This document shows, one piece after another, positions 20,735 to 26,041 of a DNA stretch of 64,000 bases; position 1 is the first letter of the stretch, and every line of letters begins with the position of its first letter. The DNA is taken from assembly GCA_020435995.1 (NCBI GenBank), contig JAGQYO010000001.1, positions 1-64,000 of the forward strand, read 5' to 3'. The stretch comes from Flavobacteriales bacterium. Its GTDB lineage: Bacteria > Bacteroidota > Bacteroidia > Flavobacteriales_G > Salibacteraceae. The position numbers and the translations under genes were made by a program. Below the pieces are notes generated by a model. It had not been told where the DNA came from. It made no database searches and saw only the letters and a program-made list of their open reading frames with translations.

Positions 20735-20916
20735 AATGATTGGAAACACTCACCGTAAAGTAAACTCATTCTGCCAACAACCCACATTATACCAAACCTA
20801 ACCTCATAATCCGATAAAATACCTTGTTAGACAATCGAGTCGAAATTATAAACAGTCGAAAATTGCATTTAGATTTTTACCCATCATTCGTTTCAAAAGC
20901 CACACCTTTGCGCCCA

Positions 20917-22713
20917 ATGAAATCTAGGGTTATAGATAAATCAGGCGAATACCTAAAGTCTTTCCTGCTTTGGCGTTCACGACACATTAAAAACAAGCCG
21001 TTTGTTTTAATGCTCAGCGTAGCGATGGGGTTTTTATGTGCGGTTGCAGCCTATTGTTTAAAAACTGGTGTGCATTTAGTGGAGGCATTTTTTGTTGGTA
21101 ATCTCATCAAAACATCCAGCAAGGCCCTTTATTTCCTGTTACCAATTCTCGGAATCATTCTTACGCGATTAGTGGTTAAATACTTAATCAAAGAAGATGT
21201 AGGACACGGTGTACCACATACACTTTATGCCTTGTCCAAAGGCAATGGGATGATAAGCAAGAAAAGAACTTTTTCATCTGTGGTTACAGCCGCCCTAACG
21301 GTTGGATTTGGAGGTTCGTGCGGGCTAGAAGGGCCAGCAGTAAGTACCACTTCGGCTATTGGATCAAATTTGAGCCAGTTACTAAGGCTTAATACCAAAA
21401 CAAGGAAATTGCTTATTGGATGTGGGGCTGCAGCCGCACTTTCTGCAATTTTCAAGGCTCCCGTCGCGGCCATTGTATTTGCGATGGAGGTTATCCTCCT
21501 CGATATCACAACCTTTTCTCTTATTCCTATTTTGCTATCAAGTGTAACAGCAGCAATGTTTTCGAGACTTTTTTTTGGGGATCAACTTCTCTTCGAATTC
21601 GAAATACATGATAAAATTCAATTTGTTGAAATGCCCTATTATATCCTGTTGGGGTTACTTGGGGGTATGGTCGGCCTCTACTTTACAAAGGTCAACTTCC
21701 TTGTTGCCCGCATTTTTGGTAAAATAAACAATACAAGCTTAAAGATATTGATTGGGGGGTCATTGCTCGGTGCGTTGATTTTCGTTTTTCCACCGCTGTT
21801 TGGTGAAGGTTATTCAACTGTTTATCATTTAATAAATGGAACTCATTCTGGCGTGTTAGAAAACAGTCAATTCATTGCTTTTCAAGACAACATTTGGGTT
21901 ATTCTACTTTTCCTATCACTGGTAGTATTTTTCAAAGCATTTGCTACCTCAATTACATTTGGCGCTGGGGGTGTAGGGGGGATTTTTGCTCCAACTCTAT
22001 TTATGGGAAGTATAATGGGCTTCGTTTTTTCAAAGTTTATAAATGAATTAGGGTTAGGAAAACTATCTGTAAGTAATTTTTCTTTACTCGGAATGGCTGC
22101 CTTGATGGCTGCCATATTACAAGCCCCTTTGACGGCAATTTTTCTCATCGCGGAAATCACAGGAGGATACCAGCTCTTTATTCCTCTCATGCTTACCACA
22201 TCCATAGCCTTTATAACGGTTAAATATTTTACCAAACATTCTATTTACACCATGCAACTTGCTAAAAGAGGGCAACTACTTACTCATGACAAAGACCAAG
22301 CTGTGCTTACCTTAATGGATTTAAAAAACGAAATAGAAAAGAACTTCAAAACCATTGGCCCATACAATTCGCTCGGTGATTTAGTGAAACGAGTTACTGA
22401 ATCGAAAAGAAATATATATCCAGTTGTGGATGAAGAAAATCAATTTTTAGGCGTTGTAACGCTTGATGATATCAGACAAATTATGTTTGATAAATTTATG
22501 TACGACAGGACTTATGTTCATGAATTGATGAGCGTAGCACCTGAGCATATCGAGATTACGGATAGCATGGAAACGGTAATGGAAAAATTTGAATCAAGCG
22601 AAGCATGGAATCTTCCAGTTGTACAAAATGGAATCTATGTTGGCTTTGTTTCAAAGTCAAAATTATTCTCTGAATACAGGAAAAAATTAAAGGACTTTTA
22701 CGAGGATGATTAG
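20917..22713 (+). CDS. ClC-family chloride channel/transporter with CBS domains
   Basis: From ATG 20917 the product has 598 residues. The N-terminal two thirds are a ClC membrane domain with the selectivity and gating motif GSCGLEGPAV, where the gating Glu is kept. Also present are FAMEVILLDIT and the second-half motif GAGGVGGIFAPTLFMG. The C-terminal part holds two CBS domains (IYPVVDEENQFLGVVTLDDI, then WNLPVVQNGIYVGFVSKS), which in this family bind adenosine ligands and modulate gating. The upstream in-frame TTG at 20824 would add 31 residues unlike the family and is rejected. No operon partner is seen. Confidence 0.93.
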   Translation: MKSRVIDKSGEYLKSFLLWRSRHIKNKPFVLMLSVAMGFLCAVAAYCLKTGVHLVEAFFVGNLIKTSSKALYFLLPILGIILTRLVVKYLIKEDVGHGVPHTLYALSKGNGMISKKRTFSSVVTAALTVGFGGSCGLEGPAVSTTSAIGSNLSQLLRLNTKTRKLLIGCGAAAALSAIFKAPVAAIVFAMEVILLDITTFSLIPILLSSVTAAMFSRLFFGDQLLFEFEIHDKIQFVEMPYYILLGLLGGMVGLYFTKVNFLVARIFGKINNTSLKILIGGSLLGALIFVFPPLFGEGYSTVYHLINGTHSGVLENSQFIAFQDNIWVILLFLSLVVFFKAFATSITFGAGGVGGIFAPTLFMGSIMGFVFSKFINELGLGKLSVSNFSLLGMAALMAAILQAPLTAIFLIAEITGGYQLFIPLMLTTSIAFITVKYFTKHSIYTMQLAKRGQLLTHDKDQAVLTLMDLKNEIEKNFKTIGPYNSLGDLVKRVTESKRNIYPVVDEENQFLGVVTLDDIRQIMFDKFMYDRTYVHELMSVAPEHIEITDSMETVMEKFESSEAWNLPVVQNGIYVGFVSKSKLFSEYRKKLKDFYEDD

Positions 22714-22729
22714 TCTTTAATTGAATCAA

Positions 22730-24697
22730 CTAACTCAAAATAATTCGCCCGCTAGGCTTTGATAGACTGGCTTTTATTTTATCCAGCATTTGTTGGGTTC
22801 GCAATATTTCAAATACTTCTTCTTCCTTTTCCTCGGCATCAATCTCTTTTAATTTCTCTTGATTCTCGTGAATCATTTTAGAAATTCTTTTCGATTTATA
22901 AGAATACAAAGATCCTTCAACAGCTCTTTTTAGCTTTAGCTCCTCACCTTCAACCAATATCTTCCTTTCTCCCCACCACTCATGCAAATCATATTTTGAT
23001 GAGAGCAAATCCACAGCAAGTTTACTGATCTCGTTGTCCTCATTATTGATAAAATCACCCATTAAAATCGGGTTTTCACCATCAACATATTCTATGATGA
23101 GGTTCAGTACTTTTAGACAGGTTTCATCTTCAAATAACATTTCATCCCGAATCAATTCATGAACCATAAACGGTGCTACTTCCACTTCAAGTTCATTTCC
23201 ATCATCGGCTAGTATGCGAATAGTTTTATCGGCATAACTCAAAATAATCCGCAATATATCGCGCTCTTGAACGCTTACATCGTCATAAAGTTTTTCTGGA
23301 ATTTCTTTAAACTCAACCGCCGACTCTTCCCCTTCGTTTCGTTCTTCGTCAATCAGGCGTGACTTGTTTCGTTCTTGCTGATTGAGCCTGATACGGCGAA
23401 TTTTATTTAATTCATTTATAAGTACTTTTTCCTCAATATCAAGCAGTGAAGAACACTCCTTAATATAAACGGACCTCGAAATAGCCTCTGGAATGAGCGC
23501 AATACTTGATACAATTTCCTTTACCAAGGAAGCTTTTTTGATGGGGTCGTTTCCAGCTTCACCCAGAAGAATGCGCGCTTTGCTAACAATAAAATCAAAC
23601 GCATTTTTTGACAAATACGCTTCTAATTCTTCTAAATCATTTTTTCGCGAAAAGGAATCCGGGTCTTCTCCTTCTGGGAAGGAAACCATCTTCACATTCA
23701 TTCCCTCTTCGAGAATCATATCAATACCGCGAAAGGATGCTCTAATTCCAGCGGCATCGCCATCATACAGTACTGTGATGTTGGAAGTATATCTTTTAAT
23801 TAGCCGTATTTGAGCAACAGTGAGTGCAGTTCCAGAAGAGGCCACCACATTCTCAATTCCTTTTTGAGAAAAAGAAATAACGTCGGTATAACCTTCAACT
23901 AAATAACAAAAGTCTTTTTTGATAATCTCCCCTTTCGCGAAATAGAGGCCATACAAAACCGCACTTTTATCATATATAATAGACTGAGGGCTATTGAGAT
24001 ATTTTGGGGCCTTCTTATCCTCAACCAAGATTCGGCCTCCAAAACCAATTGGGCGTCCAGATAAATTGTGGATGGGAAAAATCACTCGCCCCTTATAGCC
24101 ATCATAATACTGGTCCTCAGCTTTTGAAGATTCTTTTATGAGTCCCGCCTTAATTAAAAACTCCTTTTTATAACCTTGTTTAATAGCCGTATCATAAAAC
24201 TCGTTCCAGCTATCAGGACTGTAGCCCACCCTGAATTTCTTGATGGTTTCCTGCGTAAATCCGCGCTCCTTGAAATAACTTAAGCCTATCGACTTTCCTT
24301 CATCGGTTTCGGTAAGTTGGTTCTGAAAAAATTCTTCTGCAAATCGGGTTACAATATAAAGGCTTTCTCGTTCGCTTTCGGCTTCTTTTTGTTCACTCGA
24401 AAGCTCTACTTCTTCAATTTCTACTTGGTATTTGTTGGCGAGCCACTTGAGCGCTTCAGGGTAACTAAAGTGCTCTAGTTCCATGATAAATGATACTACA
24501 TTTCCACCCTTTCCAGAACTAAAATCTTTGTAAATCTGCTTATCGGGAGACACCATAAAAGATGGTGTTCTTTCATTAGAAAACGGACTCAGCCCTTTGA
24601 ACGACCTACCTGATTTTTTAAGGGTAATAAACTCGCCAATTACCTCCTCGATACGGGCAGCTTCTAGTATTTCATCAATTTTTGACTTGGGAATCAT
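22730..24697 (-). CDS. dnaG: DNA primase lacking the zinc-binding residues
   Basis: The 655-residue primase makes RNA primers at the replication fork. The N-terminal CHC2-like domain keeps its framework (LKKSGRSFKGLSPFSNE, then KQIYKDFSSGKGGN). The four zinc ligands of E. coli DnaG (Cys40, His43, Cys61, Cys64) align with Ser37, Ser40, Asp58 and Ser61, so the site is lost. The TOPRIM catalytic core is intact (LVEGYTDV, LYDGDAAGIRAS, PEGEDPDSF). The C-terminal third would be the helicase-binding domain and is highly charged. I recall the same zinc-less N-terminus from Flavobacteriia. Confidence 0.96.
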   Translation of the reverse strand: MIPKSKIDEILEAARIEEVIGEFITLKKSGRSFKGLSPFSNERTPSFMVSPDKQIYKDFSSGKGGNVVSFIMELEHFSYPEALKWLANKYQVEIEEVELSSEQKEAESERESLYIVTRFAEEFFQNQLTETDEGKSIGLSYFKERGFTQETIKKFRVGYSPDSWNEFYDTAIKQGYKKEFLIKAGLIKESSKAEDQYYDGYKGRVIFPIHNLSGRPIGFGGRILVEDKKAPKYLNSPQSIIYDKSAVLYGLYFAKGEIIKKDFCYLVEGYTDVISFSQKGIENVVASSGTALTVAQIRLIKRYTSNITVLYDGDAAGIRASFRGIDMILEEGMNVKMVSFPEGEDPDSFSRKNDLEELEAYLSKNAFDFIVSKARILLGEAGNDPIKKASLVKEIVSSIALIPEAISRSVYIKECSSLLDIEEKVLINELNKIRRIRLNQQERNKSRLIDEERNEGEESAVEFKEIPEKLYDDVSVQERDILRIILSYADKTIRILADDGNELEVEVAPFMVHELIRDEMLFEDETCLKVLNLIIEYVDGENPILMGDFINNEDNEISKLAVDLLSSKYDLHEWWGERKILVEGEELKLKRAVEGSLYSYKSKRISKMIHENQEKLKEIDAEEKEEEVFEILRTQQMLDKIKASLSKPSGRIILS

Positions 24698-24703
24698 ACC
24701 TCA

Positions 24704-24711
24704 CAAAGCTA
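24704..24711 (-). promoter_or_regulatory. -7 box of the dnaG promoter
   Basis: CAAAGCTA reads TAGCTTTG on the minus strand. It ends only 6 bases before the ATG, so transcription would begin at or next to the start codon. No strong -33 box is visible. Confidence 0.45.
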
Positions 24712-24754: not shown

Positions 24755-24783
24755 AAAAAAAAAGGCGCCCTTTAGGAGCGCCT
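24755..24783 (-). terminator. Rho-independent terminator after the Omp28-like gene
   Basis: On the minus strand AGGCGC-TCCTAAAGG-GCGCCT is followed by nine U residues. The stem lies about 23 bases past the stop of the 24806-26041 gene. Confidence 0.9.
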
Positions 24784-24805
24784 CTTAAATTTTAACTCAA
24801 CTCGT

Positions 24806-26041
24806 TTATTTCTTAAGTACTTGCTGACGGGTAATTACACCTGTTTCACCAGTTACTTCCACAAAATAGTATCCTGATTCAAATGAAGTCATGTCAACCT
24901 GGATAACATTGTCTCCTACATTAACGTCATTAGAAAAATTAACCATTTCTTGTCCTGTAACTGAAATCACTCTAACAACGGCATTGTCATTTACTTCGCT
25001 TGAGAAAGTCAAAGTAGATGATCCAGTTGTTGGGTTAGGATAAAGTTTAATTCCAGAAAAATTAGTTCTTTCTTCAACTGAAACTACTCTAAACGCACCA
25101 CCTTCTGTTTTTGGATCAAATGTAGCTAATTCTGAATTTGTTGGATCAGACTCAACCATGTTTGCCATCTTCTTTAAAGTAATAACATCTACAGCTCCCT
25201 TTGCCACTGTTACGTGCGCTTCTGCACCATTCATTATGTCTTCTTGACCTTCTGCCACGAAAGCATAAACAATCATGTCTTGAGGTACTGTATTCGCTTT
25301 ACCATCTCCACCTATATCTTCAATTACATCCCACTCGTAAACTCGTGCTACAACAGTTCCTGAAGAAGTAGTTGTAATATCTTCACCCCACTGACCAGTT
25401 AAGGAAGCTCGGTGCATTCTGTTGTGAGTGTACTCACTTCCCACAACCAATGCAGGGTATTTCGACATTCCAGATTGAGGACCCATAATTCCATCTTGCA
25501 ATAAACCAACACTTAGTTTATTAGTGGCAGTGTTAGAGTTTCCTGTATAGTAAGCCTCTACATAAACAATAATTTTGGCAGCAACAGGGTCAAATGTGGC
25601 AATAACTCCAATATTTACAGGAGACGCTTCTGATGTGATTTTGTCACTTTCAGAATCATAATTTCCATAGCTTTTTGCTGTCTTGGTTCCACCAAGCAAG
25701 CTTCTGTTCATTGTTCCTGATGGGAACCCAGTAAGTCCAACACGTGGCAATTGATACAATACCTTGCCATATTCAATAGTGCTTCCGTCTACATATACTC
25801 TATAGTTAGGTGTTCCTGTAGCGTAAGAGCCAGAATGTGTATTGATAATAATGATTTGCCCAGGTTTTTTTGCAGCTAATTCGTCAGCGGCTTTGTGACC
25901 AGCAGGGCACCATCCGCAGGTTTTTCCTGTAAATTCTTCTATAACAACCTTTTTATTTTCAGCGTTTTTAGAAGCTAGTTTTTGACCAAAAGAAATTCCC
26001 GCAATGGAAACACTCAGACCTAGTAATAAAATTTTTTTCAT
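24806..26041 (-). CDS. Omp28-related outer membrane/secreted protein with T9SS sorting domain
   Basis: A 411-residue secreted protein. A signal peptide is cut near SFGQKLAS. The Omp28 domain follows, in which VVIEEFTGKTCGWCPAGHKA (around residues 31-50) carries a thioredoxin-like CxxC. A type A T9SS sorting domain ends the protein (LYPNPTTGSSTL ... GYYFVEVTGE ... QQVLKK). Porphyromonas Omp28 is the name-giving relative. The CGWC pair may be redox active or may form a structural disulfide. Its own terminator lies downstream. Confidence 0.93.
   Translation of the reverse strand: MKKILLLGLSVSIAGISFGQKLASKNAENKKVVIEEFTGKTCGWCPAGHKAADELAAKKPGQIIIINTHSGSYATGTPNYRVYVDGSTIEYGKVLYQLPRVGLTGFPSGTMNRSLLGGTKTAKSYGNYDSESDKITSEASPVNIGVIATFDPVAAKIIVYVEAYYTGNSNTATNKLSVGLLQDGIMGPQSGMSKYPALVVGSEYTHNRMHRASLTGQWGEDITTTSSGTVVARVYEWDVIEDIGGDGKANTVPQDMIVYAFVAEGQEDIMNGAEAHVTVAKGAVDVITLKKMANMVESDPTNSELATFDPKTEGGAFRVVSVEERTNFSGIKLYPNPTTGSSTLTFSSEVNDNAVVRVISVTGQEMVNFSNDVNVGDNVIQVDMTSFESGYYFVEVTGETGVITRQQVLKK

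Follow-up and report, generated by a model that had tools for sequence, protein, structure and literature searches.

Repeated loss of the zinc site, apparently with function preserved, from replicative DnaG primases in Bacteroidia and in some of their phages

The zinc motif of DnaG-type primases is treated as central to template recognition, and its four residues are called highly conserved in a review (PMC6163395). The systems closest to the locus described here are the CHC2 primases (TIGR01391), such as those of Bacillus stearothermophilus (1d0q) and Aquifex (2au3). Zinc ribbons without ligands are found in the zinc-free (C-) paralogues of ribosomal proteins, which are extra copies used under zinc shortage. 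Zinc ligands have also been lost from a domain related to that of DnaG, the N-terminal domain of the mitochondrial helicase TWINKLE, in which, according to PMC7231222, three of the four cysteines of the zinc-binding domain are missing, primase activity was lost and POLRMT took over. Searches of open-access PMC turned up no report of a zinc-less DnaG. Here we describe a large and widespread set of cellular and phage primases without the motif. The loss is real, has happened repeatedly in the replicative primases of Bacteroidia and in those of some of their phages, and appears to leave function intact.

The window, that is, the whole stretch of 64,000 nucleotides that was analysed, carries on its minus strand a dnaG gene (open reading frame with ATG start, 22730-24697) encoding a DNA primase of 655 amino acids that scores 431.2 bits with NCBIfam TIGR01391 (cut-off 283.6). 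The parts of the gene, all on the minus strand, are the N-terminal template-recognition domain, formerly zinc-binding (residues 1-96, 24410-24697, supported by a predicted model and by a PF01807 match of 96.2 bits over residues 3-96), the N-terminal part of the primase catalytic core (DNAG_N, PF08275, 23933-24331), the TOPRIM domain (residues 265-349, 23651-23905, PF13155, Toprim_2) and a helicase-binding segment (DnaB_bind, residues 383-423, 23429-23551, PF10410, 28.3 bits, cut-off 20.6); the matches to DNAG_N and Toprim_2 likewise exceed their cut-offs. Domain order, catalytic core and predicted N-domain fold are the same as in CHC2 primases, with an N-domain identity of 38-47% to 1d0q and 2au3. 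The TOPRIM acidic residues E268, D312, D314, D345 and D347, which we take to be the counterparts of those of E. coli DnaG, are kept and are invariant in the alignment.

Unlike CHC2 primases, the window DnaG has none of the four zinc ligands and shows concerted changes around the pocket. In an alignment to intact relatives, the columns of the three cysteines and one histidine (Cys, His, Cys, Cys) are occupied by Ser37 (AGT, 24587-24589, minus strand), Ser40 (24578-24580), Asp58 (24524-24526) and Ser61 (24515-24517), the last being part of a Ser-Ser pair (codons 60-61, 24515-24520) whose first position is Gly in 97% (family-weighted) of the intact relatives. Despite the missing ligands, the domain passes PF01807 (Zn_ribbon_DnaG) with 96 bits against a cut-off of 24.9. 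Because the flanking motif G-L-S-P-F-x-x-E-x-T-P-S-F ... K-D-F-S-S-G-x-G-G is in register and free of gaps across ligands 1 to 4, the Ser and Asp residues do sit on the zinc positions. A preliminary description of this DNA had assigned these four residues to the zinc positions and called the surroundings and the TOPRIM core intact, and it was right on both counts, a shift of the residues off these positions having been looked for in the alignment and found absent. The span that it quoted (24580-24697) contains codon 37 but only the first base of codon 40, and codons 58 and 61 fall outside it.

This gene is the only DnaG found in its genome (98.9% complete), being the sole match to both PF01807 and DNAG_N (PF08275). 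The profile search, which covers DnaG-type primases, revealed no second protein of either kind, and a DNA pattern search found no CHC2 motif in the genome; the second CHC2-finger primase that would have refuted the preliminary description thus appears in none of these searches. Unlike TWINKLE, the window enzyme is the only DnaG found and keeps its TOPRIM acidic residues, and unlike the C- ribosomal paralogues, in which an extra copy is provided, the single copy is itself altered. Our main reading, to which we give a probability of about 0.72, takes the window DnaG as the replicative primase of its genome, equipped with a template-recognition domain that works and is probably metal-free.

The zinc-less state is frequent in the phylum (families and genera are referred to by codes such as f1, f4 and g23, genomes by G and loci by L numbers). 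Among 146 distinct DnaG sequences read, 83 are CHCC and 63 are zinc-less, in a sample that is not random, its first loci having been picked as the best PF01807 matches and those that followed as the best matches to the N-domain of the window DnaG; this frequency, together with the 96-bit PF01807 score, argues against chance. A less biased census was made with three DNA patterns over 295 genomes of the class, in which the CHC2 motif was matched in 212 genomes, Ser37 encoded by AGY in 38 and Ser37 encoded by TCN in 28, of which 24 were retained. The four dropped were G187, G231 and G408, where the matches are other proteins of about 300 amino acids, and G066, where the TCN match lies on a different contig from its AGY-type DnaG. 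Zinc-less DnaG with Ser at ligand 1 was therefore present in 62 of the 295 genomes (24 + 38) from 18 families, a lower bound given that the patterns miss variants, and none of these 62 genomes has a CHC2 motif match. In 21 of the 295 genomes no pattern was found in a DnaG, 10 of them being without any N-domain match. The CHC2 motif is kept in the DnaG N-domains of Bacteroides finegoldii, Prevotella and Parabacteroides.

A loss confined to a single genome or a sequencing error is ruled out, given that the zinc-less state is common to 27 of the 28 DnaG sequences read in family f1. It is also found in Flavobacterium, genus g23 of family f7 being taken as such because ribosomal protein S7 of one g23 genome is identical at 149 of 151 positions to that of PDB 7jil, the F. 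johnsoniae ribosome (PMC9976891); a second g23 genome is less close. The suggestion in the preliminary description of a lineage trait rather than a single-genome loss thus holds insofar as relatives share the state, but 18 families and phages amount neither to one loss nor to one lineage. Separate proteins of about 300 amino acids with a degenerate CHC2 motif (SRDS, SRDE, SKDT) were also encountered in f11 (L243), f13 (L244 and L245) and f70 (L261), and in f13 they coexist with a normal CHC2 DnaG (L271); possibly, at a guess, they are primases of mobile elements.

The ligand states are abrupt, in that a DnaG has either all four ligands or none or one (Cys58, or His40 in f6). No sequence with two or three was read, which indicates, as far as these alignments go, that the zinc site is lost or kept as a unit. 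The zinc-less states are S-x-C-S/T, S-x-D-S/T, S-H-D-T (f6) and S-K/R-C/D-S/T (f79, f84, f96, f97, f100), position 58 being Asp or Cys in all zinc-less DnaG sequences read, position 61 Ser or Thr, and position 40 varying freely among T, S, A, V, G, K, R and H. All 63 zinc-less sequences have Ser at position 60 (family-weighted frequency 1.00); some f79 and f96 sequences read separately have Ala there. Concerted substitutions accompany zinc loss at positions 34, 48, 56, 60, 69 and 71, with changes from Thr/Asn/Ser to Tyr/Val/Met at 48, from Tyr to Phe/Trp at 56 and from Ile/Val to Leu at 71, except that f4 keeps Thr48 and that f43 keeps Tyr56 and has Ala48. Lys57, adjoining ligand 3, is conserved in both zinc-less and CHC2 types within the class. 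In the C. difficile primase a lysine adjoining the zinc motif influences start-site choice (PMC5204125), and from this analogy and the conservation of Lys57 we would guess that zinc-less DnaG primes on C-rich starts.

In the main reading of a working, probably metal-free domain, the two zinc knuckles would be held by packing and hydrogen bonds instead of zinc, the former pocket being filled by Ser37, Ser/Ala60, Ser/Thr61 and Asp58 (or a leftover Cys58), while the substitutions at 48, 56 and 71, a compensation that is missing in some lineages, would add bulk to the small core. The face that contacts DNA, Lys57 among its residues, would be kept, and the domain would still pick the start site and pass the template on to the TOPRIM core. 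All of the zinc site would have gone as a unit, with Cys58 surviving more often than any other ligand and then giving way to Asp.

The ratio of N-domain to core identity, calculated without columns 37, 40, 58, 60 and 61 from within-family pairs that are not mutually independent, was 1.01-1.33 for zinc-less pairs (12 families) and 0.99-1.23 for CHC2 pairs (19 families), a similarity indicating that constraint on the zinc-less N-domain is not relaxed. Mixed zinc-less/CHC2 pairs gave 0.83-1.17 in six families. At the bottom of this range lie f4 and f11, which is what one would expect had the domain undergone other changes along with the loss. Judging from its conservation, the zinc-less N-domain probably functions without metal, and the statement in the preliminary description that the domain must recognise template without zinc is sound as an inference. 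The metal-free modelling that it had proposed gave, for residues 1-105 and from an alignment of 44 sequences, a model with a pLDDT of 87.5 (91-95 per ten-residue block over residues 11-90) that matches 1d0q with a Z of 17.3 and an rmsd of 1.3 over 98 aligned residues at 45% identity (Foldseek TMq 0.83). The zinc-ribbon fold is seen in the predicted model only, and as structure prediction is blind to metal and draws the ribbon either way, the sequence suits the fold but absence of metal is not implied. A larger model (residues 1-440) was poor (pLDDT 58.7) and was left unused.

Loss of ligands can also mark loss of function, and the zinc-less domain might be decaying in a primase that primes without template selection, a TWINKLE-like loss of motif I function for which TWINKLE (PMC7231222) provides the precedent. 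In the fold comparison, human Twinkle ranks directly behind the DnaG domains (Z 7.5). However, the N-domain is conserved at least as well as the core in every zinc-less family measured and phages with their own primase keep it too, and we regard decay as very improbable. Binding of a metal through a different set of residues, such as Asp58, Ser/Thr61 and a side chain close by, would fit the constancy of Asp58 or Cys58, but it is unlikely, given that conservation does not extend to any three or four residues that would make good ligands, with position 40 varying freely and position 61 being Ser or Thr. It could also be supposed that zinc is scarce and that the lineage sheds zinc proteins in general, DnaG being one case, much as zinc-starved bacteria use zinc-free ribosomal paralogues. 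Such a general economy is hardly probable, since no zinc-site cysteine is missing from LigA, PriA and RecR, three zinc proteins that act in DNA metabolism: all 20 zinc-less genomes examined have intact LigA C4, PriA eight-cysteine and RecR C4 sites, as does every copy of these genes found in a panel of 10 CHC2 genomes (9, 9 and 8).

The preliminary description had proposed to place the loss on the tree by aligning DnaG N-termini. Every one-clade test made over the zinc-less groups fails. A core tree, from which the first 105 residues were removed, requires at least 12 state changes in 146 sequences and 15 in 177; such counts carry no direction, and loss is assumed because regain of four ligands is unlikely. 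One clade for all zinc-less sequences was rejected on the core (AU test, p 3.4e-6; 66 of the 146 sequences) and also, with p 4.3e-5, on a PriA+LigA tree of 29 genomes, which needs no fewer than 8 changes. Zinc-less genera stand beside or inside CHC2-bearing ones in f4, f11, f52 and f68, these mixed groups being supported on the PriA+LigA tree for f4 (100/100), f52 (100/100) and f68 (99/99) and on the 177-sequence core tree for f11 (SH-aLRT 96); in the latter tree f52 is mixed as well, and zinc-less g36 is nested inside CHC2-bearing f4. The grouping of f43, f79, f84, f96, f97 and f100 leans partly on long branches. The only CHC2 DnaG read in family f1 (L011 of G011) has a core that groups with f3 (SH-aLRT 98), whereas PriA+LigA put G011 with zinc-less f1 (94/99, in a tree without f3 genomes). 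G011 may have received its CHC2 dnaG by transfer, and the conflict weakens the f1 loss as a clean independent event.

Zinc-less primases are also encoded by phages. Among the best 80 of 132 IMG/VR loci found with the zinc-less alignment, 12 are zinc-less and 68 are CHCC; the 12 include both Ser37 codon classes, and DNAG_N and TOPRIM domains are present in all seven of them that were scanned. Locus L283 of this database is Flavobacterium phage laban6-1 (100% identity). Ten of the 155 phage records with a match were read: the five from Flavobacterium phages 1H, 23T, FPSV-D35 and laban6-1 and from Cellulophaga phage Ingeline_1 are all zinc-less, and the CHCC state is found in two Porphyromonas phages, two fecal contigs and a contig labelled Listeria. 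As the three F. psychrophilum phages are near copies, these records hold about three independent zinc-less cases. Ser37 is encoded by TCN in the Flavobacterium and Cellulophaga phages read, in contrast to AGY in eight f7 host sequences.

The codon class of Ser37 and the residues near it suggest that the zinc-less state arose several times. Ser37 is AGY in f6, f7, f10, f52, f56, f75, 25 of 27 f1 sequences, 6 of 7 f9 sequences and the f11 DnaG, and TCN in f4, f43, f65, f68, f79, f84, f96, f97 and f100. An N-domain tree calculated without the ligand windows nevertheless places most zinc-less sequences together, with 5 changes (5-7 in a second analysis) against 12 on the core, and most of the sequences so gathered have Lys or Arg at 34, an AGY serine and, at 48, a residue that is large or aliphatic, which reflects either exchange of N-domains or convergent changes and mutation bias pulling them together. 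It is possible, though we doubt it, that an AGY/Lys34-type zinc-less N-domain arose once and spread among Bacteroidia as a cassette by recombination, perhaps via phages. The N-domain grouping, the sharing of AGY by many families and of TCN by others, the rejection of the AGY/Lys34 group as one clade on both the core (p 0.0047) and PriA+LigA (p 0.00036), and the presence of zinc-less primases in phages would all fit this. Exchange is not needed, however, given that on the N-domain tree neither f52 (p 0.28) nor f4 (p 0.62) is rejected as a single clade, and convergent substitutions or biased mutation could yield the same grouping. It also leaves the TCN lineages unexplained: f4, f68, f65 and the f43-like group combine a TCN serine with other residues at 34, a combination that speaks for additional origins even should the AGY type be a single cassette. 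The difference in codon class between the phages and their f7 hosts likewise speaks against it, no recent host-phage copy being seen among the sequences read. A still more tentative idea is that zinc-site loss is favoured in certain Bacteroidia so strongly that hosts and phages reach it separately. In Flavobacteriaceae, host DnaG and phage primases would then have arrived at one zinc-free ribbon through different serine codons, with other DNA-metabolism zinc proteins of these hosts left untouched, and the pressure would act on the primase zinc site itself (for example attack, or a need for priming under zinc withdrawal or oxidation).

The recurrence of the loss in relatives and viruses, with the rest of the domain well conserved, suggests that an essential copying enzyme can read DNA without zinc. 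The mixed families offer natural zinc-plus/zinc-minus pairs in which the role of zinc in fold stability, start-site choice and redox sensing could be addressed, and the finding bears on DnaG inhibitors that target the zinc-binding domain.

The primase match comes in two parts in phages 23T (KU599888/NC_041859, 39306-40732) and 6H (KC959568/NC_021867, 43116-44544), where some 380 additional bases and two or three annotated ORFs are present, whereas their relatives 1H and 2A have it undivided; the gene may be interrupted by an insertion or intervening sequence. Around the window dnaG, TAGCTTTG at 24704-24711, just ahead of the ATG, resembles the consensus of the Bacteroidetes -7 promoter box, and the leader would be very short. 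By eye, a terminator-like GC hairpin followed by a T run (24757-24784) lies between dnaG and the upstream gene (24806-26041), and a probable chloride-channel gene (20824-22713) is convergent with dnaG, ending 16 bases from its stop codon.
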